Shown here one piece after another: positions 7,601 to 41,000 of a stretch of 64,000 bases of DNA. The notes under the pieces were generated by a model. It had not been told where the DNA came from and searched no databases. It saw only the letters and a list, made by a program, of their open reading frames with translations. A program made the position numbers and the translations under genes. Source of the stretch: Halichondria panicea (Eukaryota > Porifera > Demospongiae > Suberitida > Halichondriidae); assembly GCF_963675165.1 (NCBI RefSeq), contig NC_087385.1:6932912-6996911 (forward strand). Direction: 5' to 3'. Each line of letters opens with the position of its first letter. The first letter of the stretch is position 1.

Positions 7601-8502
7601 GTTCTCCAAGAGTCCTCAAGTGGTAGGGTTTGTAGGTAATCAATGCACTCTGAGGAGGTCTGACGGAGCTCTCATTAGAACCAGGTGAAGTCATACCACT
7701 AATGATTCTCCTGTTCTATACTGCCCCCTCCTGTGCAGCCTGTCTCCATTACCTGGTCTCCTGCACCAGCACACCTCTGCTAGGAGATGGGAGGCAGCTA
7801 CTAAACTATGTCGCTTTGTCAAGGACCCTGCATTGTGGGCGTGTCTGGCTGCCATGGCAACGGATGCCCGGGATCTTGGCACTGCTCAGACTGCCTACGC
7901 TGCTATCAACGAGGTGAGAGGTCAACTCAAGTTAGCAAGTGTGTGCTAACATTGTCTAAATTGTATTGTATTATTATTGTAAGCTATTTAACAAGCACAT
8001 GCCCCTGACCAGTGTGTATAATTATTGTCTCGTCAGGTGGACAAGGTTCAGTTCCTCTCTCGTATCAAAGAGCTATCTAGTAGGGAGCAAAGGAATACTG
8101 AGCTGGCACTGTTTTGTCACCAGCCTACTCAGGCAGAGGCTGCTTATCTGACAGCAGGACTTGTGTACAGAGCCATTGATCTCAACCTATCTCTCTTCAA
8201 CTGGGAGAGGTGAGTCTGTATGTTCACCATAGGTCATATCTAGATACCAGTCTCTGTGTATATAGGGCCCTTGAGATTGCAGTCAAGCACAAGACACACG
8301 TGGACACTGTGCTAGCATTTAGAGAGGTCTATCTCAAGGAGATTGGCTGCTCAGAAACACTCCAGCACTTCCAACAATACTCAGGGAAGGTATGTGGTCG
8401 TGTGAGTGTGTGTTCACTAACTGTTCTCCTTCTCTGCAGCTGAGCATTGACTGGGATAAGATTAGAGCCAAGATCTCACTAGAGGAAGGAGCCACCAACT
8501 GA
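4691..8502 (+). CDS. IFT80: Intraflagellar transport protein IFT80
   Basis: IFT80 is a WD40 and TPR-like subunit of the IFT-B complex, needed to build cilia. About 17 exons follow the vertebrate protein end to end: MKLKISLQK at the start, [57 protein letters not shown] and [20 protein letters not shown] near the C-terminus. Exons run 4691-4890, 4951-5002, 5063-5270, 5434-5702, 5755-5836, 5888-5943, 6018-6142, 6192-6365, 6427-6550, 6886-7000, 7056-7253, 7390-7537, 7598-7684, 7739-7913, 8037-8209, 8266-8389 and 8440-8502, about 790 aa. Exon 1 read through carries roughly 30 residues absent from relatives, so a small in-frame intron between about 4734 and 4821 is likely. The intron at 6551-6885 holds a palindromic repeat. 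Confidence 0.95.
6575..6872. repeat. Palindromic interspersed repeat in an IFT80 intron
   Basis: One copy of a dispersed inverted repeat. Arms contain GATTTTCTGAAAGCTTAGAA and its complement around CCATGGATAATAGCCCATGG. The outer ends read GGGGACTCTTTCAGCTGCCATAACTT and a complement-like counterpart. Related copies lie at 13620-14530 and 29860-30575. No open frame of note is present, so it looks like a non-autonomous foldback or MITE-type element. Confidence 0.75.
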
Positions 8503-8694
8503 CCAACACTGACACTGTCATTATAAACTCTCTTTGATTGTTTTGGACACTCTTATTATACCACTCTTTATTAGCGTTCATTCTCTTATGTCTTATGTCT
8601 TATGTCTTATGTATAATTATTACACATCAAAAACAACAGAATAGTCAAGGAGGATAAAAACGATAATAATTATGATTGTTAGTTGCGTATTATA
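8503..8694. other. Convergent intergenic gap, IFT80/CXorf58-like
   Basis: A short 3'-to-3' gap. The only visible structure is a small tandem repeat of CTTATGT at about 8584-8611 and AT-rich sequence. Confidence 0.5.
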
Positions 8695-10352
8695 TCATGT
8701 GATATCTTCAAATGAAAGTTCTTGTGTCCATTGGTACAAGTCATCTGCTTCTAGGTCCCAGTCATCATCTTCTGCTTCCTCTTTTTCTGCCTCCACATCT
8801 CCAGAAGTGTATAATTTTCGCATCTTGTCCGCCCTCTGCTTAGCCTGACGTGACCTTCGACCCCCGTCCTTGCTACTGCATGGAGTGGCAGTCGTCTTGC
8901 GATTGCTGCAGAACAAAACTAACTCTAAATACAACAATAGCGCAATAACTGGAGGATCCATATCAGCACACTAGTCATGGTGGTTGGTACTAACAATCTC
9001 TAGACAAAAATAACCACCTCTTAAGGCTTAGGCTATAGAGAACTGAAATTGTCACCACTTAGAACATTCTGTGGGACAACACTATATAATAGTCACCTGT
9101 GAGAGGAGACAGTTTTGATGCTGGCCACTTGTTCCCTCTGAGAGTGATGTTGTGTGAGGCTGGCAGTGAGTAGTCTCAGTGACTCTCTCCCTCTCCCACG
9201 CTCCTCTAGGAATGACACGAGGTTTGCTAGTGCACTGTGTCGAGGTAAGGCAGCCAGACTCAGTCTACGCCAGCTGTTGTCCTTGCCCCCAAGGTCAGCA
9301 GGAGTCTCATCCATGTTGGACACATACTGTACACATAGGTATGGGCTTAGGGTGTGAGCAATAGGCATAACATAAATTCAAGGAAAATTAAGCGTTAAAG
9401 AAGTTAGTCCTAAGGGAAAGCATACCGTATAGCATGTAATTTTCGTGGGGCAAAATATTCATGGTTTTCGTGGTTGGAGGTCTGACCACGAATATTTTAC
9501 CCACGAATGAAGCGACCTTGCCTACCTTTACCTGCAGTGCAAGCTCCAACCACTAAAATATTACCCACGAAATGTCTCAATATTGCTGAACCACGAATAT
9601 TTTGTCCCCCAAAAATTACCCGCTATACGGTAACTCATGGCATGAACCCTGTGAACCCTGTGTTAAAGTACAACACACATAGTGCAGTGAGGACACACAC
9701 CTGCATGTACTCCTTCATGGTGGAGACATCCACTTCATCAGTGACTCCCAACACCTCGTGGTGACAAGCATCACGATACATTTGATCATAGAACACACGA
9801 TTGCCCATCTGTCGACGTGCATCCTCAGCTGCCTGTGGGTGCAACTGTGTGTAATGAGTGGGGTACATAGATTACAGTCACCTCAGATGCTGGTTTAATC
9901 ATTTTCCTGCCACTGAGGTAACAGACTCCCCCAGCCCCCTGGCCAGCACTCTGAGTGGACGTGAATATCTTGAACAAAATAAAAGGAGGAAATTCAGGTC
10001 CACTAAATCTGAACTTGATTCTGGCTCTGATGGCAGGATCTTTGAGCAGCTCTGCCTCTAATGGACTTAGTTTACGCAGCACCTCATAAGTCAGAGAGTG
10101 CTCCTGCACAACACAGTACACTCGTAGTGAGTATAGACACACACACTCAGATCACGCACTTACAGCAGCACACACTGCCTCCTTGAGGAGCCGGAATATC
10201 CTCCTCCCTCGCATCCTGATCCACCATTGCTCAATGCGGTACACAGCTCTCAACATTTCCTCTGTCGTTGGTTGAGATGTAAAACTATTTACTGGGCCGA
10301 TGTATCCAGAGCGTGTGGCTGGAACTCCCTTGCCCTGTAGCTGGGCGGCCAT
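8695..10352 (-). CDS. CXorf58-like: CXorf58/C11orf65-family protein
   Basis: Five in-phase exons, 10352-10164, 10103-9882, 9832-9701, 9326-9097 and 8905-8695, give about 327 aa, close to human CXorf58. The family has no settled function; expression in ciliated or testis tissue is the usual report. Matches include an N-terminal IQ-like helix (RIEQWWIRMRGRRIFRLLK), the core SPLEAELLKDP and RFSGPEFPPFILFKIF, and an acidic C-terminal tail with MRKLYTSGDVEAE and LYQWTQELSFEDI, also found in C11orf65. The third intron carries a small inverted-repeat MITE. An X-box-like site sits just upstream of the ATG, consistent with but not proving a ciliary role. Confidence 0.8.
9423..9632. mobile_element. MITE with TACCGTATAGC terminal inverted repeats
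   Basis: A 210-bp element begins TACCGTATAGC and ends GCTATACGGTA, with AT-rich subterminal repeats of GAATATTTT and CCACGAA. It sits in an intron. Termini match those of the 2-kb element at 17293-19245, so it is probably a non-autonomous derivative of the same DNA-transposon family. A TA target duplication is possible but not certain. Confidence 0.8.
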
Positions 10353-23557: not shown

Positions 23558-26500
23558 ATGCCTGGAGCAAAGAGAAAGCTATTAGAGATATGCAGCGAAT
23601 GCAAGCACTCTTCCAAGCCTGCTATCAATGCAGCCAAGCTGGGGCATGCTCAATGCCTCACCACTGCTTACAGAGATCTGGGAGCCTTCAATGAAAGGGA
23701 TGACTTTGGTGCCACGCCCATACATTTTGCTGCAAGGTTTGGGAAACTGGAATGTCTTGAGTGGCTAGTTACAAGAAGTGGAGTCTCTCCTAACGCTGTC
23801 TCCAGGAATGGAGCTACAGCTGCACACGATGCAGCAGCAATGGGGCATTTAGGTTGTCTGCAATACCTGCTCAAGACCACCAAGTGCTCAGTGCATGACA
23901 CCACCTCTGAGGGAGCTACAGTACTACACATGGCGTGCAGGTTTGGGCGGCTGGACGTAGTCAAGTGGCTCATGGAGTTCTCAGACTGTACCTCTGGAGA
24001 GAAGGGAGCTAACAACGTCACACCAGTGCATCTCTGTGCGGCCAAAGGTAGCTGCACGAAAGGGGGAGGGGCTCGCTAGCTGCACACAAGGGAGGAGGGG
24101 CTCGCTAGCTGCAAATGCACGTGGCTGTAATGAGTGGGCGTAGGACAATGGCTGGCTAGCTAGCTGAATGGTGAATGAAACAATGATATTATGGCCTACC
24201 TGCAGATCACCTGGACTGTCTCAAGTACCTAACTGGTCACTCTAGCTATGTTGCCAATGAGCAGACTGTTCATGGTGCCACACCTCTCTACTTTGCTGCC
24301 CAGGAAGGATGGTGAGGATCAGTATCCATATATGGTAGTGGTGTATACAGAATGTTTTGCGAGCATCAAACATATGCAAACTTGTGCGAGTTTGATCATT
24401 TCGCAACAATATTATTACTAGTAAATATACACACGATCCTTGCCAGAACGCAATATGCAGATTGCAAAGGGTCAACTTTTGCTGATTCGCAAAGGTTTTT
24501 TTACCCGCAAATATTCTAATAATAATGAGTGAAGCTCTACCTGTGCTAACGTGTTGTCGTTAGTTGGCATGTATTTCTCCTGTAGTTATTCATGCACTCC
24601 TGCTTATGTGTACAATGCAGTCATTATGCCACGCCCACACTAATGCCCACACTAATGCGTAAGAAGTTTGCCAGTTTTCCAATTCCCTGAAGTAATTATA
24701 CCAATAATTATGTGTAACAGTGGTGTGTATTTGTGGTGGGTTGAGTTGTTTGAATGTAAACTGCTAGTCTTGTAAAAAGCAGGAAGTGATGTGTTTATTG
24801 TCAGTTGTTCAACAATGGCAGAGCCTTTAGAGCTAGCTAGTGTTTATGAGACTGACAGAGTGCTCAATAGCACACCTCTCTCTGTCAGTGTGGAGGTTCA
24901 GTACCATGGCCTCGGTTGCCTAGGAACTAGATACAAAGCACTAGGTCCTCTACAGCCACAGCAACTAGCACAAGTCTTGCAGCAACAACTGGACACTCTC
25001 TCTCGTGTAAGGCATCCAAACATTGTCCAGTTCCTTGGCCTGCACTCCTCGGCTCCTGACCTACCTCTCATTGTTCATGAGCTGCTGCCCAAATGCCTGA
25101 CACAATGTCTGGACCACCCTCTCCCCCTCAGGCACAGTCTCTCCATACTACATGATGTGGCTCTGGCCCTCAACTGTCTTCACCATCAGGCCATTGTGCA
25201 TGGAAGCATCTCAGCGGCTAACATTTACCTCACCAAAGATATGACTGCCAAACTATTTGAAGTTGGTACAGCCTTTGTATTGCGTGCAGTGCAATGTGAC
25301 TACCTCCAGCCCACGACTGTAACTGACATTCGCTCCTTTGGTACTGTAATGCAAACAGTTCTCAACTCTACAGAAGACATCTCCACTGCCTCAGTCAAGG
25401 AGCTGGTCTACAGTGTAGTGACACGGTGTTTACAAGCTGACCCTCTAGACACTATAACACTCCTCTCAAGTATAGCCTCCATACTGAGCAAGCTGCCCTC
25501 ACGAGATGTGTCAAGTCCTTTGGAGGCTCTGTTGAATAGACATCACAATAACTTTGTGTCCGTAGACTCGGCAATTGACCCAGACCCCCCACCAGGGTTG
25601 ACCCCCTACAGTGACGAGGAGAACCCCCCACTGCTAAATAGACAGTACAGCATTTCACAGGTACAGCACCACCACTCACTGTACATGTTGTGTGCATACT
25701 AGGACAGCTATTATCCTTGTAGAGGTTTCCTGTATAGGTGGGAGTAGATTGTAATTTTGCTCTTATCATATTCATTGCCTATAATAACATGTGATTACTT
25801 GCACTGTCTTGTCAGTTGCAGGACGGTTTTGTGGAGTGGAGGCGTTGTGCTGATCTCCCAGTGGCCGTGTTCCAAGCAGAGGCTACTCTTATCAATGGAC
25901 GTGTGTATGTGGGCGGAGGCAACACTGAGAGTGAGAGCACTGCAAACATTATCTACGAGTATGACCCTTGTTCTGACAATTGGAGGGGCCTCCCCCCTGT
26001 CAATGTTACATTGTTTGGACTCGGCCAATTGGAAGGGGAGTTGGTGATAGTGGGTGGTCGCTCTGGAGTGAGAGTATCTGATCTAGTGCTAGTGTTCAAT
26101 CATCTCACGCAACGTTGGAAGCTGTCTCTCCCCCCACTCATCACCCCTCGCTATTCAACCACCTGTCTCTGTCCCGAGGGTGCACTCATTGTTTCCGGGG
26201 GACTCTCTCAGGCCGGGCAGGTGGCCAATAGCATTGAGGTCCTGGCGGTGGACCAGTTCACTTGGACTGTGGTCGGATATTTGTCTCGTTCTGCTTCTCT
26301 CTGCTACCCCAGTGCAACTCGAGTGGCAGATTCCTTCTACCTCTTGGGTGGTTATACGTCCGACACAGCATGCAGTGTGTCTAGCTCCAGCCACTGTGCT
26401 GCCCTCTCCACCCTCCTTCCCTCTGGTGACCTCAATCCTTATATATGGCATGGCCTACCTGACACTCCTCACAAGCAAGCCACTGCTGCCACGCTGCATG

Positions 26501-29500
26501 GCTACCTCCTATCACTAGGTGGTTGCACACAACCTTACACTAAGCCAGTCCACAACTCCATACACGCTTTCTCCCCCTCGCTCAACTCATGGGAGCTGGT
26601 GGGTACACTACCTCATGCCGTATGTCACGCTACAGCTGTTGCCATGGGAGACGAGATCTTACTGATTGGAGGGTGGGTTGAACCCGGCAAGTTCAAGAGG
26701 TCAAACGCTATATACCGTGGACAGTTTGTCATGCAGAGATAACTTTAACTATAGTGTTGTATCAAGTTACATTGTCTTTTGAGTTAAATCTTTTTTGTAA
26801 TGAGATAATTATTTTGAGTAATGTTCCTGTGAGCTAGTCATTCCAATGCCATCAGTCAGCGCGTGTCTGCGTTGCTAGGGAACTGAATTCCATCCTGAGT
26901 GGGTGTAATGTTATGTTGACCCCCTGCAGTGTTTGACCTTGCGTGTTTACCCCCTGCAGTGTTTGCCCTTGTGTGCTTACCCCCTGCAGTGTTTGACCTT
27001 GTGTGTTTACCCCCTGCAGTGTGAATGCCCTCCAGTGGCTAGTGGAGGAGGGTGGGGCTGACCTCTACCTCACAGCTTCTGATGGGATGTGTCCAGTACA
27101 TGCAGCTGCTCAAGCTGGTCATATAGCGTGCCTAGAGTACCTCGTGGAGAAGGCCTCTGTCCCTGTGAGACACAAGGCCAACGATGGAGCAACTCCTGCT
27201 CACTTTGCTGCTGCCAGTGGACAGGTACATACATCACGACCCTGCATGTACATACGTCACGACCCTGCATGTACATACGTCACGACCCTGCATGTACATA
27301 CGTCACGACCCTGCATGTACATACGTCACGACCCTGCATGTACATACGTCACGACCCTGCATGTACATACGTCACGACCCTGCATGTACATACGTCACGA
27401 CCCTGCATGTACATACGTCACGACCCTGCATGTACATACGTCACGACCCTGCATGTACATACGTCACGACCCTGCATGTACATGTTTACTTTCTGTGTTG
27501 ATCTTTCTATAGCATATGTATCCGTGTGTGCCCAGATGTCAGCAGTCAGTATACAGTATATCATGTGTACATAACTGCAGGTAGAGTGCTTGGACTGGAT
27601 CATCAACCATGGCGGTGCCTTCTATGATCGGGACAACCTAGGTGGTACACCAGCTCATGATGCAGCTGAGCAGGGACAGGTAGGCTCAGTCAGTGTGTCA
27701 TGAGTGTGTCACATGACTATCACATGACTAGACCTCGGCACTCAAGCTCCTATTGGATCGTGGGGTGGACATGGACACGGTTGACTATGAAGGATTGAAA
27801 CCATTGGACCTAGCACGGGACAACAACCATGATGAATGTGTGCAACTGCTCTTTAGGACCATCAAGCCTAATCTACTAGTGAGTATAATTATAATTATAT
27901 AGCCATCACCCTTCCACCCACCACACACCCTCACAGGAGTCACTCACTCCACACCAGAGCCTTAGTCGAGGTGCCACACGTGACAGTCAGACATCAGTAA
28001 GAACATAGACCACCCCCTGTATATGTATTGACCCTTGACCCCCAGATGGAGCAGGCAGCTAAGCAACGAGCGTTTGAGCAAGCCATGTTAGCAGGCGTTC
28101 CAGTGGAGAAGAGGGAGGCTATCTGGCAGAGAGCTCAACAGAAGGCAGTGAGTGCATCTGCATATGTACTAGCAGTGTAGTACTACATGAAATATGGTGT
28201 GCAATTTGTCCGTTTCTGAGAAAAAGCGTGGGCTATATAATTATATATGGGTGATTTTTCTGGGAACATGTGCAGTCATTTGTTGAGCCTGGCTTGAAGC
28301 AGATCCTGGATGGAGGTCCGTTGTCTGCCCCGCCCCTTGAGAGCACCCCCTCCTCCGTACACCTCACACCAGTCAGCTCAATGAGACACTCCAGACACTC
28401 CACAAGGCTGGATAACAAGGTACACTAGCATGGGTTTAGAGATACTACAGTCAGATAATGCATGTCCTCTGTTACCAGGACGACCCGCTGAGTCTCAAGC
28501 CCCGCCTACCTCTCTCCCCCGAACTGTTTCAACACCCTCCAGCTAGTACTGGTGAGTGTGGTGTGTGGTGTGTGGTGTGGGTGTGGGTAGTGTGTGTGGT
28601 GTGGGTGGGTGTACTGTGTGTGATATTGATTGTACATTCACTGCAGGAAATGCTGTGTCAGCAGAGATGCAGAGTACAGCAAAGAAGGCTCCACCCACTC
28701 AACGGCCCACCTCCCCTCAAGCCAAGAAGCAACCACGAGCCACTGGACCCCCAGCAAAGGTGTCTGTAAAGAGACCCCCTCCCAAGAAACAAGTCAGGAG
28801 ACCAACATCACCACTCCCCAAGAAAGTCGCTACTAGACCAACATCTCCCCCCATAAAGAGGCCAACATCACCCCCTGGAAAGAGGCCAGTATCGAAGATA
28901 TCAACATCACCCCCCGCAAAGAGGCCAACATCACCCCCTGGAAAGAGGCCAGTATCGAAGATATCAACATCACCCCCCGCAAAGAGGCCAACATCACCCC
29001 CTGGAAAGAGGCCAGTATCGAAGATATCAACATCACCCCCCGCAAAGAGGCCAACATCACCCCCTGGAAAGAGGCCAGTATCGAAGATATCAACATCACC
29101 CCCCGCAAAGAGGCCAACATCACCCCCTGGAAAGAGGCCAGTATCAAAGATATCAACATCACCCCCCACAAAGAGGCCAACATCGCCCCCCGGAAAGAGG
29201 CCAGTATCGAAGATGTCAACGTCGCCCCCTGCAAAAAGACCAACATCAAAGAAGCCAACATCGCCCCCCATAAAGAGGCCAACGTCACCCCCCGGAAAAA
29301 AAATACAATCCCCCAAAGCTGTCAAAAGCCCTCCTATGAAACGAGAGGTGAAGCGACCAGCTCCCAGCAAACCCCCTGCTAAGAAACCCCCCACTACAAT
29401 GATCCCCACAAAGAGACCCCCCAGTAAGCGGCAGTCATCATCTTCCAAGGGGGAGAAGAAACGAACCTCTACGAACACTAAACCATCGCAGCAAACTGAA

Positions 29501-32500
29501 CTGGCGGTTGCCCTTAGCAACGTTCCTGGTGATGTCACAACACAGGCGGCCAATCAGAAGATCGAGCAGTTGCTCAATGACAGCTTGGTACCCCCTACCG
29601 CCGCAGAGGGGGGGGCACTATCTGAGGAGAGGCCACTATCTGATGGAGGGTCACTACCTCTAGGAGATGTGGAAGCATTTGCTGAGAAGATTGTGGAGCT
29701 AGTTATTGAAGAGTCCATTGGTAACCAAGGTAACCAAGGTGAGTGTGTGTGTAGCTATAAATGAAGACAAAGAGGGATTGGTAACGGAAGGAAGTGCCCT
29801 CGAGTATTATCCGTGATTCTCCGCAGTTTTAATTGAGGCTTACTTTAAACGTGGAAGCTATCACATGAGTTGAACATCAGCTTATTCTTTCAACAGCCAT
29901 TAACTTGAGTACCGTTGATCTAATATCATAAATTTTATGATTTTCTGAAAGATGTTTCAAATGATGTATTTCAATCCAAAATTTCGTTGGGACCATAATT
30001 TGTCATTTTTCGGCCTCGGACCATAGGCTATATATAATCCATGGTATCGCCAAATTGGCAAATACTTTTATCTCTCAAATACGAAGTTTGATGACACCAT
30101 TTGAAAGGTCTTTTTTTGAGCTTTCAGAAAATCATAAAATTGTTGACATTGGATCCACAGAATTCAAGTTATAGCAGCTGAAAGAGTCCCCGAACCATTG
30201 ATTAAATTGTGGAGGGGGAACATCTTTCAACAGCCATTAACTTGAGTACCGTTCATCCAATGTCAAAAATATTCTAATTTTCTGAAAGCTTAGAAAGAGA
30301 CCTTTCAAATGATGTGTTTCAATCCAAAATTTCGTTGGGGCCATAATTTGTAATTTTTCGGCCTCGGACCATGGGCTATTATTATCCATGGTATCGCCAA
30401 ATTGGCTCAAATATGAACTTTGATGACACCATTTGAAAGGTTTCTTTCTAAGCTCTCAATATTTAGATCAACGGCATGCGCACTGAAGCTATGGCTGTTG
30501 AAAGATGTTCAATTACCCCCCCCCCGGCCCCCCCTCCGTTTAATCAATGGTTCGGGGACTCTTTCAGCTGCCATAACTTGAACCCTTACAGATAACAGCG
30601 CAAAGGAAGTTTCCACTGGCCACCTTGAAGGGGAAATCCCTACTGTTGAAGGGGAAATCCCTGTCTTGGAGGGGGAGGTGGTGTTACGGAGCAACAGCAC
30701 GAGTGAGCAGCCTCCAGCGAGGAAGTCAGGGTTCAAGGAGGAGGCTGTCATCAGTAAACCCCCTCTCAGACAAAGCCTCAAGACAGGAGATGAAACGGTC
30801 ACAGTGACCTTTATTCCCAAAAGCTCTCATATCAAGACCCCCTTCCCTGTCACCCACCATCAGCTGTTGACAGCAAATGACCTTGAGTCCCCAGGGGCTA
30901 GTGATACTGAGGGAGATGCAAGGGACAGCTTCTTCACTACACCTGGATACGATCATCTTAATGCTGCTAACTTTGATGACTTTGGAACTGCTGTTAAAGT
31001 ACGACCTATGGAGGTAGACAAAGATAAGAGCGAAGATATGACACTTGATCTGGATGAAGACAAAGAAGCCACAGATTGTCCAGTTGATCTGGCCGATGGT
31101 ACTACCCACCAGATACCTGAGCCTAGTGGTGACCCCAACCAGCCCGCTCCAACCAACCAGCTGCCTAGTGGTGACCCCAACCAGCCAGCTCCAACCAACC
31201 AGCTGCCTAGTGGTGACCCCAACCAGCCAGCTCCAACCAACCAGCTGCCTAGTGGTGACCCCAATCTACCTGTAGATACACCCACCCCTACTGAGCCAGC
31301 TCAGCTGCTTAGTAGGTGGAGCAATACACATATCCTCGACAATATCGACTCCATGGGCAAGAAAAAGGCAGTAAATAACGACACGATTGAGCAAAAGAAA
31401 AACGTTGGTTCTGATGTGCTGAAGTTAATGAATCGTTTCCAAGACAACCGAAAATCACAAGCCAAAGACGAGGCTACCAAAGCAGCCAATCAGATTGTAG
31501 CCAGTTCAGTCAGCGATCGTCTCAAGATGTTTGGGGGTGGCGTCAGTTTCCGCTCTGAAAACCCCGCTGAGCCCCCCTCTGGGGGTCGTGGTCGCTCTGA
31601 ATCCCCCGGTGACTCCCCCTGTGCCAGTCGTGATGCCTCCCCCGGACACAGCAAGACACGACGTAGTTCCAGTGCACAGAGTGTGACAGCGTTTGAGACA
31701 ATAGCAGAGGAGAGTCCGAGTGGAGGAGAGGGGGAGGATAAAGTGACCCCCCTGCCCTCTATACAATCAACCCCCAGCAGGAGGCACTCTGAGGAAAAGC
31801 TGCGATTGGACGGACTCAAACTGGAAGATCTTGTCAGTAGTAACAAGAATGAGAGTAATGGAAATAAGAGCCCCTCTCCCCCGTCCCTGGGTCAGCGGCG
31901 GCACTCTGGGGGTGTGGTCAGTCCTCTCCTTATCTCCTCATCCCCTAAGACCAACAGAGCATCGATGCTATCCTACAGTGGCTCTGAGGCTATGGCAGTG
32001 TACATGAACTCAGCTAGACTACCACACCTCGACCATCTGAGAGAGAGGAATGACAGGGAGGTGGGCATCACCGTGGATACGAGGGTGGGGCTACTCCTGG
32101 CACAGCCTAGAATGACGGGGGACAAAGTTCCTGTCGAGTTCAGGTCTGTTGATTTTGGGGACAAAGGAAAACTTCATGTCTGGAAACAGAAGGTGAGCTA
32201 ATAGCTAGTGCATTCCACCATAGATACATACACTCAGGGTTTGTGTGTTGATGTATTGCCCACCCCCTCACAGGCTGGCAGTCTCAACAAGCTTGCTTCT
32301 CTCGACTCACTCTCTTTTGAACCCAAGGCAGTGTTCCTGTTCCTCCACACACCCACACACGGCCCACACATCCACACAGTGTATGTGTGGGTGGGTGCTG
32401 GTGTGAGTCACTTTGCTGTCCAGTCTGCCTACCAGCACACCATGAGGCTCATTCAGTGCACACCAGGGAGACCCCTCATCATCAAAGAAGTGTGTGACTG

Positions 32501-35500
32501 TGTCTGTGCTGCATGAGTATTGTATAGTAGGTTATCCTAGGTGTCCATTATTATGGCAGTAGAGTTGCAATGCAATGTGTGTGTGTGTGTGTGTGTAACA
32601 GCATCTCTAAGCCCTTCCCATCCCACCCCCGCTAGTTCCAAGGTCATGAGTCCGCTGGGTTCCTGGCGGCCTTGAGGAACGCAGGGAAACAACCATCTGA
32701 GTTCCATCAGAGCTACCTCAATGCTAACCTTAAGACCAGTGCACTTGTTGTGTATAAAGACTCCTCCTTTAAGACCCTCACTGCCCCCCTGGACAAGCTG
32801 ACCTCCCCTGCCCTCCTGGATACTGCCGTAGGGCTGTGGGTGTGGTTACCTGCCTCCTACTGGGGACAGTCCCCTCTAGAGATATCAGAGGTACGACATA
32901 ATGTTATACCATCATTCAAACTCAAAACCTTCACTGTACATGCATGTGTGTGCCTAACCCTGTGTGGTGTGTGTACGTGTGTGCAGCTTTACATATCACA
33001 AAATAACTACCCCAAGTGGACGCCCGTCACCGTGGTTACAGAGGGGGTGGAGGCCCAAGAATTTGCAGTTCACTTCTCATCATGGCCGTGGGTAGATCTG
33101 TCCAAGGGTCAAAGGTCGTCTGAGCTGCATCTACCAGATGTGCGACCTCCACTAGTCACCTATCCAGCCACTGGGCAAATCAAGGTAAAGGTGTTGTAGT
33201 GTCACAGTATTGGCACTATATTGATTGTAGGCATGGCGACTGGAGGGTGGTGGGCTGACTCCAGTGGACCTGGGAGAGCTGGGTGTGTTCCGGTCCACAT
33301 CACTCTACCTAGTTCAGTACTGTTACCTCAAGCAGAGTCAGCTGTACACCTGGATGGAGGGGGCGGTGTACGTGTGGGTGGGTGCGGGACTAGCAGGGAA
33401 CAGGAGGGCCCTCGTTAACCAGGCACTCAACAAAGTGGAGTCTGTTACAACCACTCAACTGGTTCGTTGATTGTCATGTGTAGACTAGCTATAATCTCAT
33501 TGGTTGCTCTCATGTACAGCCGGTGGTGATAGTGCCTGAAGGGTTGGAGACTGGACAACTGCTCAACCTCTTCAAGGGAAAGTGTATCATCCACAAGAGC
33601 ACACAGGTAACACCCACACACCTCACACACGCCCACACTCACACACACACGCCCACGCACACCTCTCAGGAGAATGGTGTTGGACTGTATCGTGTGTCAG
33701 GGACCAGTCTACTCACCATGAAGGCCGTGGAGGTAACTCCGCCCACTGTCACCTCACTCAACTCTAGCCACACCTTCATTCTTCGTGGCCGAGATGGGGT
33801 GTGGTTTGTGTGGGCGGGACAGTTCTCAAGTGCGGCCCAACGGAGAGGTGCCCTCATAATTGTCAAGACACTCGCTGCTGACTCAACAAAGTGAGTGACT
33901 AGAATCACTAGTAGTGTTGAGTGTTGATTGTCTCACAGGCCTGTTGTTAAACTAGCGGAGGGTTTGGAGACGGGAGAATTCTGGGCAGAGCTTGGAGGGA
34001 AAGGGAGACATGCGCACTTTGACCCCCAGTGCAGTCCCCCCTACCTCCTACCGCACTTGTATGACTGTGAGAGTAGTAAAGATACGACGCTCTTCATTAG
34101 CCAATCACCCACTAGCAGGGGGGACCTCAAGATTGACCACGCTTACTTACTCTCGTACAAGGAGCAGGTGGGTGGGGTTGTCACTATATAATATGCCGTG
34201 TGACTATATAACTCTCTGCGTACAGCTGTTTGTGTGGACAGGTGTTGACTGGAAGGGGAGATCCCCTCTTCTGTTGGTAGAGGCCTACCTGTGTCAGTAC
34301 AGGTCGCGTCAATCAGAAGAGCAGTGTTTGGTGACACTGGTCAGTGGAGGGAAGGAGGGAGAGACTTTCTGGAGGTGGTTTGATATACAGGTACAGAGGT
34401 CAGAGGTCATTATTTACCCTATCTAATCATGTGTTTAGATCAGGATTGTTTTGGGGTCAAATGTTGCGGAAAAAACCGTGTGCTGTTATAAATCACTAGC
34501 TAAGTTTCAGAGGCCATAACTTGTGTTGCGAATATTATGATTTCCAACAATAGATAATTATTATAATATTAATAAATTAATAGATAATTATTATGCATGT
34601 ATTTGGCAGATGAGTCATTTGAACGTAATTGGCGGTTTTTTATTTGGTGTCTCAGGCATGGCTACTACAGCACTGACGTTGTGTCCACTGGAAAAACTTT
34701 AAAGGGAAGGTACCATGAAAAAATTAGCTTAAAATGTTCTTTGTGAGGTAACTTCATTTTTTCATGGTACCTTCCCTTTAATTTTACAGTTATAAATTTG
34801 GCGATCTTCGGTAAATTCTGCCAAATTGCAACACTCACAAAAATTTTCCAGTTACATTTAATTGTACTACAATATTGGGCTTAGACCAGTAATTTGTTTC
34901 TGGTCCAAATTGTAAAAAAAGCGTGGAATGTAAGTGGATGTTTTTTCAAAATCAAGCCTGTTTTCGTAGCAAGTTTGAGAGGCCATAACTTTCCCCCGTT
35001 TGAAAGGTCTTGTTTATTAGCAGGAGTACATTGCTATTAGGAATCGTGCTGTCTATTCAAAATGAAAAAGCATGGGCTAACATTTTACAGTATATTTGAA
35101 TGCATGTCGGGATGGCTAACATTTGGTCTCCTCAGAATCCCGGAGTGACTCCGCCCCCTGAGGTTCCAGTCATGAATATAGCCCCGCCCCCCTCTGAGGA
35201 CTTTGACCCCTCAGACAGCATGGTGGCTGTTGAAGAGCACACAGAACACACACCAGCTCCTGTTGAAGACCTCCCACCAGGACCTGTTGAAGACCCCCCA
35301 CCAGGAACCTCAATGGAGGATGGGCGTCCATTGTCCCTCACACCATCGCAAGTGGTCACTGTTGAGAGAGTGGAGACTCTCCAATCAGAGCTGACAGACC
35401 TTGTAGAGGCTGAGGCTAGTGTGAGCTGTGATGGTGTGGAGGGGGAGGCTAGTGTGAGCTGTGATGGTGTGGAGGGCACCTCCCCCTTGAGAAGTGAGAC

Positions 35501-37228
35501 TATCCATTGTGGTGGAGTGTTTCATTACATCTCTCATGCATGCAGCGAGTGAGGCCATTCAGCAAATGTCTGAACTGGTCAATGGACTGGACAACATGAT
35601 ACAGATTAGTGCCACGCCTCCTCAAGAAGCCACACCCACTGGTATAGAGTGTGCGGAGGCAAGCTCTGTTTCACTGCAAGTACCACCTGTAGACAGTCTG
35701 CTGGATACTCCCGAAGGTGTGTGTGTGTGGGTGTGTGCATGTGTGTGTGTGATCAATCTATTGTTGTGTGCAGATGATAACTTGCCCACTCCACCGCCAG
35801 TCATCAAGGTAAGCTCCCACGTGTGTGTGTGTGTGTGTGTGGGTGTGTTGTTAGATCATGTGTCTCCTTTGTAGAAGAGTAAGAAGCAGTCCCTACCACC
35901 ATCTCCTGCCCCATCTCCTGCCACACCTCCTGCCACACCCCCACCACTCTCTGTGAGTTATATTGTGTGTACAGTATACAGACGTACTATACACATTATC
36001 ACAAATGTTAAAGCAAAAAAGCAAACACTGCAGAGCTTGTACAGTGGATTGTAGTGCACTTGCAAACCACAATTTTGATTGTTAGATATGAATAATATTA
36101 TCATTAATCAGGGCCAAAGACTGAAAGGGGAAATTATATTTAGCGTAGTTATTTCGGCCATTTCTGATTCTACAAAATGAATAATTCTAGCACATATCTG
36201 AGAACAAAAAAAGACAGAACCTAATCTACCAAAAAGGGTAAGTTGGGTTGTCGCCCGGTTTCTGTGAAACTTCGTTTCACAGAAACCGGGCGACAACCCA
36301 ACTTGATTATGTACTTAACAGGAGTATAATGCATTCAAAAGTTAGGGAAATTACTTATTGATTTGTAAAGAAATGAAGAAAAGTCCCCCAAGAGGGAATC
36401 GAACCCACGCCTTATCTATCATATGATCTACGAAGCCACCACCCTAACCACTAAGCCACTCCCAGTTTTAGGATTATCTAAAATGGTTTTGCTGTTAGGC
36501 AATTCTCTGTTGCAAGTGCACTGCAATTCACTATAGATAGTGGTCCCACAGTGACCAGTGACCACTGCAGAGCTTGTGTGGTCCCACAGTGACCACTGCA
36601 GAGCTTGTAGTGTGGTCCCACAGTGACCAGTGACCACTGCAGAGCTTGTGTGGTCCCACAGTGACCACTGCAGAGCTTGTAGTGTGGTTGAGTTTATACA
36701 GTCCTTGTGTGTATACACATGCACACTCCCTCAGATGTTGGTGGAGGTGGAGGTGGAGGCAAAGGGCGTGACAGTGGAGGTACGGGTGAGAGAGAAGGCT
36801 CCTGTCATCACTCTCATGTTTAGAGCTGCTCGCTCTGCAGGACTCTCCCTCACTACCAACTCTGCTCTCTTTGAGGTGGTCCCGTCTCTCAAACTATGTA
36901 AGTCCCACCCACCACACACTCACAGTGGCTAGTAGCCCCACCCACCACCCACTCACAGTGACTAGTAGCCACACCCACCACACACTCACAGTGACTAGTA
37001 GCACCACCCACTCACAGTGGCCAGTAGCCCCACCCACCACACACTCACAGTGACTAGTATTGACCCTCCCTCTACTATAGATCGCTCCCTAGAAGACCAT
37101 GTGCTGGTACGAGATGTGATAGCTGTCTGGCCTAAGAAAGATCGACCTAAATTACTTCTGAGGGAGTTTGCTACTAAGAATGTCCTGTGGAGTGACAACC
37201 CTCCAGTGAGTGTCCCTCCATACACACG

Positions 37229-37261
<33 letters not shown>

Positions 37262-37607
37262 AGATCTCAGGCAGAGATATCAGTGCTTATGTAAAGAAGG
37301 GGACTGTACCACAAGTGAGCTCCAAGCTGTTGTACAGCAATAAGGGGGCGGGGCGTCTTCCCTGGAAGGAGGGGAAGTTCTCATTGAGGACTCTTGGTAT
37401 CTACACTGTCACACAGTCCAAGGTACAGTGTGTGTGTGTGTACTTAGTGCACCTTTACATGACCTCCTATGTGTGCAGAGGAAGAACAGTAGCGAAGTGT
37501 CACTGATGACAAGTTTAGACCACACCCTCTACATCCCACTAGTGGTAGAGGGGAACTACTACACGACAGCTACACCCTACACCTTCATCATGAAGGTACC
37601 CATTACC

Positions 37608-37651
<44 letters not shown>

Positions 37652-37918
37652 ATCACTCTCTTTGTTTACAGCCTCCCAACTCTTGGCGTGAGAAAGACCT
37701 GACATTCTACAGTGCCCCCAGCCTGCCAGTCATGTCTCAGTGGATCCATGTCGGGAGGCTGTTCAAGGTAGCCCCCACCATGTGTGTGTGTGCATGTATG
37801 TGTGTGTGTGTGTAATCTCCCCTCCTTATCACAGCATGGGGTTCAGCTGAAGGCCAACTACATTGCCATGAAGACTAGAGTACAGAAACAAGACAGGAAG
37901 GAACAGGAACAACCATAA
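23558..37918 (+). CDS. ANK-gelsolin-RA-PH actin regulator (espin/supervillin/MRL-like fusion)
   Basis: Twenty-nine exons join in one phase-consistent frame of about 2368 aa. Residues 1-350 are ten ankyrin repeats ordered like espin (NGATAAHDAAAMGH, EGATVLHMACRFG, HGATPLYFAAQEG, LGGTPAHDAAEQG). A linker follows with 21-residue repeats (KRPTSPPGKRPVSK...) and 14-residue repeats (SGDPNQPAPTNQLP). At about 1355-1907 are at least four gelsolin-like domains with villin/supervillin signatures (VYVWVGAG twice, WFVWAGQFS, LFVWTGVDWKG). After a Pro-rich spacer, an RA domain (about 2121-2217, LEDHVLVRDVIAVW) and a PH domain (about 2220-2345, WKEGKFSLRTLGIYTV, SQWIHVGRLFKHG) resemble RIAM/lamellipodin. 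Exons: 23558-24047, 24206-24311, 27020-27224, 27581-27679, 27732-27878, 27937-27996, 28046-28147, 28276-28419, 28479-28551, 28647-29738, 30592-32192, 32274-32489, 32636-32890, 32987-33184, 33231-33461, 33520-33606, 33670-33890, 33939-34167, 34226-34390, 35136-35493, 35546-35716, 35774-35808, 35875-35952, 36735-36897, 37081-37205, 37264-37422, 37479-37595, 37672-37767, 37835-37918. Two adjacent genes remain possible. Confidence 0.78.
24312..24814. other. Left part of the nested-gene intron
   Basis: Intron 2 sequence ahead of the nested gene. A diverged inverted pair GCGAGCATCAAAC / GTTTGATCATTTCGC lies at about 24359-24407. It probably also contains the nested gene's promoter. Nothing else is recognised. 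Confidence 0.4.
24815..26742 (+). CDS. Pseudokinase-Kelch protein nested in an intron
   Basis: Two exons, 24815-25660 and 25816-26742, encode about 590 aa. The N-terminal half has a TKL-like protein kinase fold: RHPNIVQFLGL, a hinge HELLPKCLTQCL, and a catalytic-loop region VHGSISAANIYL. HRD is replaced by HGS and the DFG position reads FEVG, so it is predicted to be catalytically dead. The C-terminal half has about six Kelch repeats (GRVYVGGG...DNWRGLPPV; GELVIVGGRSG; GYLLSLGGC; EILLIGGW), a beta-propeller for protein binding. It lies wholly inside intron 2 of the ankyrin gene, same strand. The ankyrin frame resumes on the far side. ATG at 24815 was preferred to an upstream GTG-led frame. 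Confidence 0.85.
26925..27019 (+). repeat. 30-bp tandem copies of a 3' splice site
   Basis: Three to four copies of a 30-bp unit containing ACCCCCTGCAG|TGTTTGACC. Only the last, at 27018-27019, joins the ankyrin frame; using an upstream one brings an in-frame stop. Confidence 0.85.
27225..27482 (+). repeat. 23-bp tandem repeat starting at a splice donor
   Basis: About eleven copies of GTACATACGTCACGACCCTGCAT. The first begins exactly at the donor GGACAG|GTACAT of exon 3, so every copy repeats a GTACAT donor-like site. No spacers, so this is not a CRISPR array. Confidence 0.95.
28870..29290 (+). repeat. In-frame 63-bp coding repeats (Lys/Pro-rich)
   Basis: About six copies of a 21-codon unit (KRPTSPPGKRPVSKISTSPP) inside exon 10 of the ankyrin gene, the last ones diverged. 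The composition suggests a flexible, basic, possibly actin- or SH3-binding linker. That role is inference. Confidence 0.9.
29860..30575. repeat. Palindromic interspersed repeat next to exon 11
   Basis: Two or more copies of the family at 6575 and 13620, in inverted array. Its right end (GGTTCGGGGACTCTTTCAGC, CCATAACTTGAA) runs to within about 12 bp of the acceptor CCCTTACAG at 30591. The element therefore forms almost all of intron 10, including the likely branch-point region. Confidence 0.8.
31124..31275 (+). repeat. In-frame 42-bp coding repeats
   Basis: Four copies of a 14-codon unit (SGDPNQPAPTNQLP) in exon 11 of the ankyrin-gelsolin gene, forming a Pro-rich linker. Confidence 0.9.
34391..35135 (+). 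other. Long intron of the ANK-gelsolin gene
   Basis: A 745-bp intron between the gelsolin and linker exons. It contains the perfect hairpin at 34699-34781 and AT-rich sequence with fragments resembling the palindromic family (GAGGCCATAACTT, TTTGAAAGGTCTT at about 34979-35010). No exon is seen. Confidence 0.5.
34699..34781. repeat. Perfect 25-bp inverted repeat
   Basis: Arms TTAAAGGGAAGGTACCATGA... and its complement flank about 33 bp, probably a tiny foldback element. Confidence 0.85.
36040..36535. repeat. Foldback element with tRNA-like insert
   Basis: Bounded by inverted GTGCACTTGCAA / TTGCAAGTGCAC. The left half ends in a perfect hairpin with 31-bp arms and a TTC loop at 36240-36304; the right half carries a tRNA-like sequence. 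A related copy at 43370-43580 shares the CCGGGCGAC...CCCAACTT arm, the TTTTGTAGAATCAGAAA stretch and ATCTAAA.TGGTTTTGCTGTT. Confidence 0.7.
36384..36466 (-). ncRNA. tRNA-like sequence, probably SINE head
   Basis: The minus strand has a perfect A box (TGGCTTAGTGG) and B box (GGTTCGATTCC) at tRNA spacing, followed by TTTT. The putative acceptor arms (CTGGGAG and TTGGGGG) do not pair, so a functional tRNA is unlikely. A tRNA-derived SINE head or tRNA pseudogene fits better. Confidence 0.6.
36540..36690. repeat. Short tandem repeats, CACTGCAGAGCTTGT unit
   Basis: Alternating copies of GTGGTCCCACAGTGACC and ACTGCAGAGCTTGT, four rounds, in the intron before the RA exon. A further partial match (CACTGCAGAGCTTGT) lies at about 36028. 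Confidence 0.8.
36898..37076 (+). repeat. Tandem repeat starting at a splice donor
   Basis: About five copies of a 33-36 bp unit (GTAGCCCCACCCACCACACA...). The first is the donor itself, AAACTAT|GTAAGTCCCACCCACC. The repeat fills the intron between the two RA exons. Confidence 0.85.
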
Positions 37919-38084
37919 CCTAGCACAAACTAATTAACCATGCAACCTATGTATAACTAAGTAATAATAATTATTATGACATGCATTATAATTATGATTA
38001 TTTTACTTGACATTACGTGTTCCAAAACTTTTATAATAATTATTGCTATTGTGTGAAGAGTTATGCATGCAAAGGTCGTTTAGT

Positions 38085-41000
38085 TCATTTCTTCTTTTTC
38101 TTTCCTTTCTTTCCTTTCTTTCCCTTCTTGCCTTTCTTTCCTTTCTTGCCTTTCTTTTTCTTGGAGTAGGGTCCCAACTGTTTCCTCACCATCACTCCCT
38201 TCCACCAGGCCTGTACCTGCACACACAAGTACAAAGTACAATCAGCTACACACACAACACCTGGCAGAGTGGTGGACTGGGTACCTTAGTGGCAGCTTTG
38301 GCCTCTCTCTCTGCTTGCTCTGCCTTGAGTCGCAGCTTCTCCTTGAGCAGTCGATGTTCCACCACCACTTCATTGAACTCATTGTACTGTAATATAGGGG
38401 CCGTGGTATAACACAAGCTAGTGTATATATCCCTAACCTGCTGAGTCAGCTCCTCTAGTTTCATTAGACCACTTGCCTTGCTTTGCTACATGTACACACA
38501 ATAGTTATAACATTGCATTAGCCACACCCACCTTGAGTTCGTGAAGATCGCGTCCCTTCATCTCGATGTCTTGTTCGTGTCTGGTCATCCAGTGATCAAC
38601 CTTCTCTGCCAACTCTTCGTAATGTTTCTTGAGGTAGGCCTCAATACGCCCACTCACACACGCCTCCTCTGCTAACTGTTGCTCTAGAGTCCCCTCACTC
38701 TCACGCAGTGACCCCTCACTGTTGCCATGCCGACGCTGCAACACCTCCACTGTCACCTGTACACACACACACACACACACACAATGGAGGGGGGATAGCA
38801 AAATAATTATTTCAAAAAACTTTTTAGAAAGATAGAAATAGGCCAGAATGTGGACCAAGGACCCACAATCACCTCACCCTTGTGCTACATACATAGCTAT
38901 TACCTGTGACTCTTTCTTGACATACTTAGCCTCAAGGCTTGTCTTGGCTTTGAGCTCTTGTAGCTGGTCCCTGAGGTGAGCAATCTGCTCACTCAGCTCC
39001 TGTGTGGGTGAAGAGAACAACGTGAGGGTGGTATCAGTGAGAACCACTGAGCCACAACCATCACCTAGTGTGCATACTCCCACAATAAGGTAATTGCAGC
39101 AATGAACACAATCAATCAATCAGTGGTCATTATAAAAACAACTGTACCATAATATTATTATATTGAATAAGTGAATAGTTATTATGAACAAACACAGTCA
39201 CTAAATACACAATTCACTTGACGTATAGTTCAATTCTCTCGAGGGGCACATCTTCTTCACCTCTATTCCCGGCACAGATACGCACCTCCAGATCATCACA
39301 CGAGGCGGTGGGGAGGGCAGCACTGAAGTATGGTGGGTTGTTGCGAGCACAGCAGTTGTTGGTGGACCGACAGCCAGTACCATCCCATAGTGGGTCATCC
39401 TTATACAGCTGGATCCTTGTGTTATCATGACTCACTACACCACTCTCACAGAAATAGTTACTCCCTACGAATGGTGGCACTTCTGGCATAGAGCTGACAC
39501 AGGGACACACTTCATCTGTGTCATGTACTTCACCAAGGCCCGCAGCAAATGTCCACACATGTTCTCTTTGTGTCACACCACCTCGACTGATAACAACACC
39601 ATCCATGAATGCATCGTCTAAAGTCAGATCTTGGTTGAGGGTATACTTCTGAAATGCATCCGTGCTACCGTACTGATAAGCTCTGACCAGGCCACAAACT
39701 TGATTATATTGAAGTTCTTGAGTAGAGAAGAAGACAGAGGTACATTCAAAGCCAGCAGGCCGTCGACACAGCCTTTTATTACTGCCAGGAATGGAGTCAT
39801 TGACCCAGCCTTGAGGACAAGAGTGAGAGGAATTAGTCATGTCGAGATTAGCCACTTGTGTCCAGCCAAGTCCTTCACAAGGAGAAGGGGAGAGAGAGGC
39901 TTGCAACTGAGGCAGGAGGGAATCGATAATGGTGTCTAGATCAGCACTGACTTGGTTCACGGCTTCTTGGGTGGATGGACAAGAGCCGGCTGTGTTAGTG
40001 AGTACTTGTCCAGGGTGTCTCCTAGGCAAGCTATGACAAGTGGTGCACTCGCCAGCTACCAACACACTTAGTAGGTACGTAATAATGAGAGCTACACACT
40101 TCATGATGGAGCTAGTTACTGAATTATAATGTGCGTGTGTGTGTGAGTGAGTGAGTGGCTTAAATACATGCTGCTAGGGGGACATGGCTCATTGGCATGG
40201 GAATGGTAATAAAGGCAGGTGCAGAGATGATGCCATGGGAAGGAAATTTAAAAGCCTCACAGTTAAGTACTAATATGTATGTGGCCTATTCAGCAGCTCA
40301 TTAACCAGCACCGTACAAGGGTCCAGTCATCACATTCCCAGACTGTAATTAGATTATGAGAGGAGTCATCACTCACACTCAGTTGGTCCTCCTTGTCCCT
40401 CCGCAGCTCCACCAGTTGTTTCTTGAGCTGACGCACCCTCCTCCGACACTCCTCTTCCCTGCCACAACACACAGCAAGAATCATGAGAGGCCATACACTG
40501 ATCTTATTATATCAATAAATCATGATACACCACCGATCTTAAATCAGTGATAAACTTCTCTAAGAATAACTTGACTTGAAGTATCCACATTAGAAATGCT
40601 CCCATCAACACGGTCACCCATTAGTATTAGTGACAGCAGTCTGTTTCTCACCTGAGTATGGTTTGCTCCTTGTGATGCTTGTCCTCATGACACTGTCTGA
40701 GTCTGGTTGTGAGCTGTGTAAAGGTCCCCTCACATGACACCTCTCTCAGAGCCTCAGTCATAAGGTCCTCCAGAAACTCACGATCACCCTGTAACTTGGC
40801 CATGTTCTCCTGTACAGCCTTGGAGGTCTTGGCAGCTACACACAAGGTGGGCCGGGGTACTCAGAGGGTTATTATACGCATGTACACTCACCTTGAGCAG
40901 TGGCATTGAGGCTATGTGCATGGTCTCTCAGACTACCACCCTCCAAACCCATCCCTTCAAATTCTGCCTCTAAATGACGCTGGCTCTCCAGAATCTGTTT

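Follow-up and report, generated by a model that had tools for sequence, protein, structure and literature searches.

A candidate espin-gelsolin-RA-PH chimeric gene in the sponge Halichondria panicea

Results

Gene model and modules

The window analyzed here is a 64,000-nucleotide stretch of the Halichondria panicea genome (NC_087385.1, positions 6,932,912 to 6,996,911). Rebuilt from the raw sequence, the gene model occupies 23558-37918 on the plus strand and consists of 29 exons that encode 2368 amino acids, with a single, terminal stop. All 28 introns have GT-AG borders and the exon phases are compatible throughout; placing the exon 25 donor at 37205 keeps the frame. We therefore reproduced the in-phase model of the first-pass annotation, which ran from the ankyrin ATG to the PH stop with no internal stop. 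The module identities proposed there, an espin-type ankyrin (ANK) head, a gelsolin-family body and an RA-PH tail, were each matched far beyond chance by domain search of the 2368-residue model. ARAGORN reported 0 tRNAs.

Exons 1-5 (23558-27878, plus strand) encode the espin-type ankyrin domain, residues 1-349. Using phmmer, residues 21-364 matched espin (5et0_A) over one 344-residue stretch that runs into exon 6 and scores 263.5 bits, compared with 121.0 bits for the best single stretch of ankyrin-1. The espin match stays in register across intron 2 (24312-27019, 2708 bp). This intron also holds a complete nested open frame on the same strand (24815-26742), a kinase-like plus kelch gene of 590 amino acids that has one intron at about 25661-25818 and lies outside the chimera (Pfam PK_Tyr_Ser-Thr, 2.4e-11; Kelch_1, 8.9e-23). 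N69, S103 and L110 are named as Myo3-pocket residues of espin in the excerpt of PMC4758956. On the 5et0_A alignment, with an inferred chain offset of 2, N69 is kept, S103 is replaced by E and L110 by M, so that one of the three sites is clearly changed.

Actin bundling had been among the activities suggested for this protein. When compared with the 2368-residue model, the human espin bundling module reached only 1.5 bits, and the pattern P.W[KR]R was absent. Pfam WH2 was not found in residues 1-451, 401-1203, 1072-1373 or 1271-2368, and a single loose WH2-like pattern, LKQILDGGPL at residue 410, lacks the LKK end. Espins bundle actin through a C-terminal module, according to the excerpts of PMC13322139 and PMC3953818, and large espins have an additional actin site, xAB, and an ankyrin-binding peptide (PMC3953818, excerpt). 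With that C-terminal module not found in the model, its sequence does not support actin bundling by the chimera. PMC4818920 was set aside as an espin source, as its excerpted text concerns Espinas.

Following the head, exons 6-10 (27937-29738, plus strand) encode a linker of low-complexity composition that is probably disordered. Residues 476-839 have a net charge of +58, and the part encoded by exon 10 is strongly basic and contains six copies of RPTSPPGKRPVSK[IM]STSPP. No Pfam family was found in residues 401-1203.

Exons 11-19 (30592-34390, plus strand) begin with a low-complexity part and continue into gelsolin-like domains. Residues ~1364-1904 match gelsolin (1d0n, 3.9e-30), villin (9jw0) and adseverin (5a1k) among 39 PDB matches, none of which is to a chain named supervillin. 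Two Pfam families score above their cut-offs on the body: DUF7904 (54.1 bits) and Gelsolin PF00626 (47.5 bits against a cut-off of 21, in one stretch). The domain order can be read as G1-like, G3-like, G4, G5 and G6. At the positions taken as the type-II calcium sites of G4, G5 and G6, the aspartates are replaced by S, H and H, respectively (3 of 3 aligned sites). The villin headpiece (Pfam VHP) was found neither in the three modules (E up to 1) nor in the linker. In the excerpt of PMC4944918, the gelsolin domains plus headpiece of supervillin are described as having no F-actin affinity in cell culture models.

The C-terminal part begins with a proline-rich linker in which no Pfam family was found at E up to 1 (exons 20-23, 35136-35952, plus strand), followed by the RA-PH module and a short tail (exons 24-29, 36735-37918, plus strand), where exon 24 starts with an ATG at 36735 in weak context. 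RA-PH structures matched over residues ~2157-2351, and by eye the RA domain starts near residue 2122. The highest scores were to lamellipodin (6.6e-12, 48.2 bits), RIAM (45.2 bits), Grb14 (43.2 bits) and Grb10 (30.4 bits), so MRL-type and Grb7-type RA-PH are not clearly separated by these matches. An RA-PH profile matched at 7.1e-19 (one sequence searched). At E up to 1, RA_2 was the single Pfam family in residues 1908-2368 and fell below its cut-off; neither Pfam PH in the tail nor an SH2 domain in residues 1908-2368 was found. A GTPase and lipid input through RA-PH is plausible, but the WKRRYF of RIAM reads WKEGKF here. The FPPPP-type Ena/VASP motif, [FLYW]PPPP, had 0 matches in the 2368 residues. 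A candidate RIAM talin-binding helix in exon 21 (SEAIQQM, compared with SEDIDQM) was dropped, since 243 of 2000 shuffles scored as well and a PDB search with the stretch gave nothing at E up to 10.

Related loci in the same genome

Elsewhere, the Halichondria panicea genome has RA-PH loci that stand apart from this gene, a second gene with an espin-type ANK domain and a locus that combines gelsolin with a headpiece. Searching the genome with the lamellipodin PH domain recovered the C14 and C16 loci and not the window (6 matches, E up to 10), which indicates that the RA-PH of the window is a diverged copy. As a genome query, the window RA-PH found only itself (5 matches); given that lamellipodin PH recovers both C14 and C16, this self-only result reflects a limit of sensitivity. 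VHP exceeded its cut-off once on C6 and twice on C2. The exons of the window were not among the 12 matches of a whole-genome search with Pfam Gelsolin. Similarly, the window gelsolin module had no match at E 0.1 among 927 ORFs from six loci of this genome, and gave three weak matches (4e-4 to 1.3e-3) to the C6 gelsolin-plus-headpiece locus.

Joins between the modules

Whether the three modules belong to one gene depends on two joins. At the first, intron 10 (29739-30591, 853 bp, plus strand) has the best-scoring donor of the 28 introns, and no other of the 1022 GTs in the gene reaches its score; its acceptor ranks 7th of 28. No in-frame ATG is contiguous with exon 11, which runs for 139 residues before its first methionine (residue 979), and a scan of intron 10 for alternative first exons turned up none whose donor exceeds the 10th percentile. 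Splice-site, ATG and first-exon scans thus all support the proposed placement of ANK and gelsolin in a single frame, and from the DNA alone the exon 10-11 join is very probably genuine.

At the second join, intron 19 (34391-35135, 745 bp, plus strand) could instead be an intergenic gap. Its donor ranks 21st of 28, with 5.6% of the 1022 GTs in the gene scoring as well, and its acceptor ranks 25th, with 22% of 1049 AGs scoring as well. Exon 20 has an open in-frame extension (35100-35135, plus strand) that contains two ATGs, a weak-context one at 35100 and a strong-context one at 35112. The first-pass annotation had held that no obvious new start is needed; this stands at exon 11 and fails at exon 20 and at the exon 24 ATG. 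We rejected intron size as a marker of gene borders, since introns 10 and 19 consist largely of repeats: one at ~29886-30458, weaker to 30575, with copies at many genomic places, and repeat pieces within 34493-34991. Overall, we consider the join of RA-PH to the ANK-gelsolin body fairly likely.

The main alternative, which we regard as possible and the less probable reading, is two tandem genes: an ANK-gelsolin gene ending in or after exon 19, and an RA-PH adaptor starting at 35112, 35100 or 36735. The weak sites of intron 19 and the strong-context ATG contiguous with exon 20 favor it. Contiguous in-frame ATGs are nonetheless not rare, occurring ahead of 4 of the 28 exons from 2 to 29 (exons 9, 19, 20 and 21), although strong context is seen in exon 20 alone; exon 19 has one and yet lies inside the gelsolin match. 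The ATG that opens exon 24, together with an intron 23 donor that is second weakest (rank 27 of 28), also points to a separate start, and intron 23 contains four short candidates for an alternative first exon that pass the filter. The gelsolin match stops at residue 1904, which is 3 residues short of the exon 19 border, and read-through of exon 19 meets a stop at 34424-34426, 11 codons beyond the donor, with an AATAAA at 34571 inside the intron. Because no AATAAA occurs on the plus strand between the gene end at 37918 and 40208, this motif is a poor marker here. Against two genes, the phases of exons 19 and 20 match, and an adjacent, same-strand pair of actin and membrane adaptors would be a coincidence.

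A single locus with several products, in which alternative promoters or poly(A) sites yield ANK-gelsolin, RA-PH alone and the full-length protein, would draw on both the splice path and the alternative starts described above. It has a precedent in vertebrate espin, with isoforms differing at the N-terminus (PMC3953818, excerpt). We consider this arrangement improbable for the locus. Three neighboring genes (espin-like, gelsolin-like and RA-PH) would fit the separate genes that carry these modules in other animals and the other RA-PH loci of this genome, but are very improbable given the 139 residues of exon 11 that precede its first methionine, the lack of a passing alternative first exon in intron 10 and the top rank of the intron 10 donor among the 28.

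Discussion

We lean toward a single gene that encodes a 2368-residue espin-gelsolin-RA-PH chimeric scaffold. With slightly more reserve, we favor a protein whose espin head continues into a gelsolin body devoid of calcium ligands and then into a diverged RA-PH tail of the lamellipodin type. This single molecule would connect a motor-cargo-type ankyrin groove through pseudo-gelsolin to GTPase and membrane, as a lineage-specific alternative to espin, supervillin and MRL proteins. The ankyrin head, identified by homology, would bind a partner peptide. As with espin-1, this is probably a tail of the class III myosin type. At the cortex, the basic linker and the gelsolin-like body may have an actin-side or docking role and not that of a severing enzyme, and the C-terminal RA-PH could link the scaffold to the membrane and to a GTPase of the Ras/Rap type. 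Such a scaffold would probably serve membrane-linked actin protrusions, for example microvilli.

The three-part chimera would be a new combination of already known parts. ANK, gelsolin, RA and PH in one protein were not found in the titles and abstracts of the open-licence literature, in searches that did not all target this combination. Searches with a 592-residue query from exons 18-29 confirmed no relatives among 74 pattern matches in the prokaryote contigs of GTDB and found none among 2 matches in the viral contigs of IMG/VR; these scans cover prokaryotes and viruses and say nothing on other animals.

In both Ephydatia species, Villin and Espin are choanocyte-enriched and the four Espin homologs are expressed at relatively low levels, according to the excerpt of PMC4942974. 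The chimera is a candidate for work on the choanocyte or filopodial cytoskeleton. If the single-gene reading is true, an early-branching animal joined membrane and GTPase input with an espin-type groove in one actin-cortex protein, and roles split elsewhere among espin, supervillin and MRL proteins can be held by one molecule. It would also warn against carrying "espin = bundler" over to a protein whose only espin part is the ankyrin head.

Comparison with known proteins places each part beside a familiar relative. Like espin-1 (ESPN), the chimera has an N-terminal ankyrin domain followed by a linker that is proline-rich in composition, whereas gelsolin and RA-PH modules stand in place of a detected bundling module or Pfam WH2. 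Within the gelsolin/villin superfamily, the chimera resembles supervillin in its long low-complexity part ahead of a run of gelsolin-like domains and in its replaced calcium aspartates of G4-G6, differing in its espin head, its RA-PH tail and the absence of a villin headpiece. The order RA then PH is common to the MRL adaptors (lamellipodin, RIAM and MIG-10) and to Grb7/10/14; unlike the former, the chimera ends just past PH without FPPPP-type motifs, and unlike the latter it has no C-terminal SH2. Lastly, villidin of Dictyostelium, which differs in having WD repeats and a headpiece and neither ankyrin nor RA, likewise brings PH and gelsolin-type domains together in a single protein.

Gene model and exon junctions

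Rebuilt from the raw sequence, with GT-AG borders and the reading frame used to define the exons, the gene of the first-pass annotation (23558..37918, + strand) again comprised 29 exons and 28 introns encoding 2368 residues with one terminal stop. The proposed junctions at 29738/30592 and 34390/35136 were recovered identically. Exon 25 ends at donor 37205, which keeps the frame; use of 37209 breaks it. The 28 introns were scored with leave-one-out position matrices made from those same introns.

The ankyrin head and the gelsolin body are very probably joined in one product. At the exon 10-11 junction, the intron 10 donor ranks 1/28 with a score that it alone reaches among the 1022 GTs of the gene, and the acceptor ranks 7/28. 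Read upstream, the frame of exon 11 is closed by a stop codon whose first base lies 13 bases 5' of the exon; the interval contains no ATG. The first Met comes 139 residues into the exon. No alternative first exon within intron 10 rose above the donor filter. Together, these ranks and the lack of an upstream ATG, an alternative first exon or an early Met support this join well.

We favor, with moderate confidence, a join of the RA-PH module to the gelsolin part. The intron 19 donor and acceptor rank 21/28 and 25/28, respectively, and upstream of exon 20 its open frame reaches two ATGs, one in strong context (35112) and one in weak context (35100). As a control, a contiguous in-frame upstream ATG was found at 4/28 of exons 2-29 (exons 9, 19, 20 and 21), with strong context only at exon 20. 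Additionally, the intron 23 donor ranks 27/28, intron 23 contains four short alternative first exons that pass the filter, and exon 24 opens with a weak-context ATG. The weak splice sites and the possible separate starts count against this join.

Introns 10 and 19 are largely genomic repeat (at least 308 matches with 40 of 1581 candidates scored, and at least 111 with 40 of 212 scored), and thus their length says little. An AATAAA lies at 34571; this motif is a poor guide here since the + strand from the gene end at 37918 to 40208 contains none. The repeat at 29886-30575, which takes up most of intron 10, occurs at many genomic places in copies ∼340 bp apart, and among the matches listed many copies adjoin one another on contig C11. 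Intron 23 carries a perfect inverted repeat (36240-36304; 31-nt arms, 3-nt loop) beside a stretch that is tRNA-like by eye (∼36385-36470), for which ARAGORN makes no call.

Domains of the predicted protein

The espin ankyrin domain (5et0_A) aligned with residues 21-364 in a single stretch of 263.5 bits; ankyrin-1 gave a larger total score, summed from four overlapping stretches, the best at 121.0 bits. Because the espin match crosses the exon 2/exon 3 junction in register, the 2.7-kb intron 2 is best read as an intron. It contains a complete kinase-kelch open frame on the same strand (24815-26742, +; 590 aa, one intron). By eye, both HRD (HGSISAAN instead) and DFG are missing, so the product may be a pseudokinase. 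A short tandem repeat (CATGTACATACGTCACGACCCTG-like) was seen by eye in intron 3 at 27224-27480.

In Pfam, the linker (residues 401-1203) had no match with an E-value of 10 or less. The linker part encoded by exon 10 is strongly basic (+58 across residues 476-839), and the part from exon 11 is acidic (-19 across residues 840-1352). The gelsolin superfamily match spans residues ∼1364-1904: residues 1364-1464 align with adseverin 11-112 (5a1k, 3.2e-5), 1493-1567 with villin 274-356 (9jw0) and 1529-1904 with gelsolin 309-707 (1d0n, 3.9e-30). Judged from these alignments, the body would comprise five domains, G1-like, G3-like, G4, G5 and G6. Two Pfam families exceeded cut-off: DUF7904 at 54.1 bits, over three stretches, and Gelsolin at 47.5 bits, in a single stretch. 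At the presumed positions of the calcium aspartates of gelsolin G4-G6, the aligned residues are S, H and H, and calcium-controlled severing therefore appears unlikely. The long basic linker seems a better candidate for actin contact than the gelsolin fold.

The first-pass annotation had placed ankyrin, gelsolin and RA-PH modules in one frame. Pfam bore out the gelsolin assignment; RA fell below cut-off and PH was not found in the model, indicating that the RA-PH module has diverged. Residues ∼2157-2351 nevertheless match the RA-PH pairs of lamellipodin (6.6e-12), RIAM (5.4e-11), Grb14 (2.3e-10) and Grb10 (1.6e-6). A profile built from two further RA-PH loci of this genome together with lamellipodin matched residues 2162-2350 (7.1e-19 with a search space of one sequence).

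Related loci and novelty

The genome comprises 131.5 Mb in 39 contigs. On C17 there is a second ankyrin gene of espin type (5108975-5113215; 4976-9216 of locus L048), with 41% identity over query residues 1-247 (167.6 bits); the next match outside the window reached 32% and 125.3 bits. Downstream of it, open frames seem low-complexity, with a sub-threshold CH match beyond them; espin heads may therefore be attached to different tails in this genome. The lamellipodin PH query found RA-PH loci on C16 (41%/75 residues, 1.9e-14; L059 4250-6096) and C14 (67%/43 residues, 4.1e-10; L060 3892-6569), and the window RA-PH was not among its matches. In the C14 locus, SH2 scores 18.4 bits, below cut-off, on pieces joined by hand. 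Both loci are candidate MRL/Grb7 relatives of this animal.

With a presumed sequence of the human espin bundling module as query, a gene on C10 was matched (3.8e-5; L061 2909-4906). The open frame there, 666 aa long, repeats an xPxWK motif and matches Phostensin_N weakly, below cut-off. Pfam Gelsolin gave 12 matches genome-wide, on C6, C8, C15 and C17, with the window absent from them. VHP exceeded cut-off once on C6, the same contig as Gelsolin, and twice on C2.

The combination of ANK, gelsolin, RA and PH appears to be new; its individual parts are known. Among the open-licence papers listed in a literature search, no title or abstract placed the four in one protein, and we know of no such combination. 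The three-way fusion is the most striking part and depends on weakly supported splices.

Proposed working and comparison with known systems

We read the product as neither a bundler nor a severer but a cortical scaffold, in which the head would hold a motor peptide or cargo, the body would lie on the actin side and the tail on the membrane side. The C-terminal module of espin bundles actin (PMC3953818, PMC13322139), and espin has an extra actin site, xAB (PMC3953818); the C-terminal bundling module was not found in the model. The myosin III tail is a ligand of the vertebrate espin-1 ankyrin domain (PMC4758956, PMC3953818). Of three Myo3-pocket residues named in PMC4758956, N69 is kept in the window, while L110 is M and S103 is E (5et0_A alignment, with the chain offset inferred). 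According to PMC3327698, the RIAM RA domain binds Rap1, the lamellipodin RA does not, and the lamellipodin PH domain binds a phosphoinositide. Where RIAM has WKRRYF, the window has WKEGKF at the aligned place.
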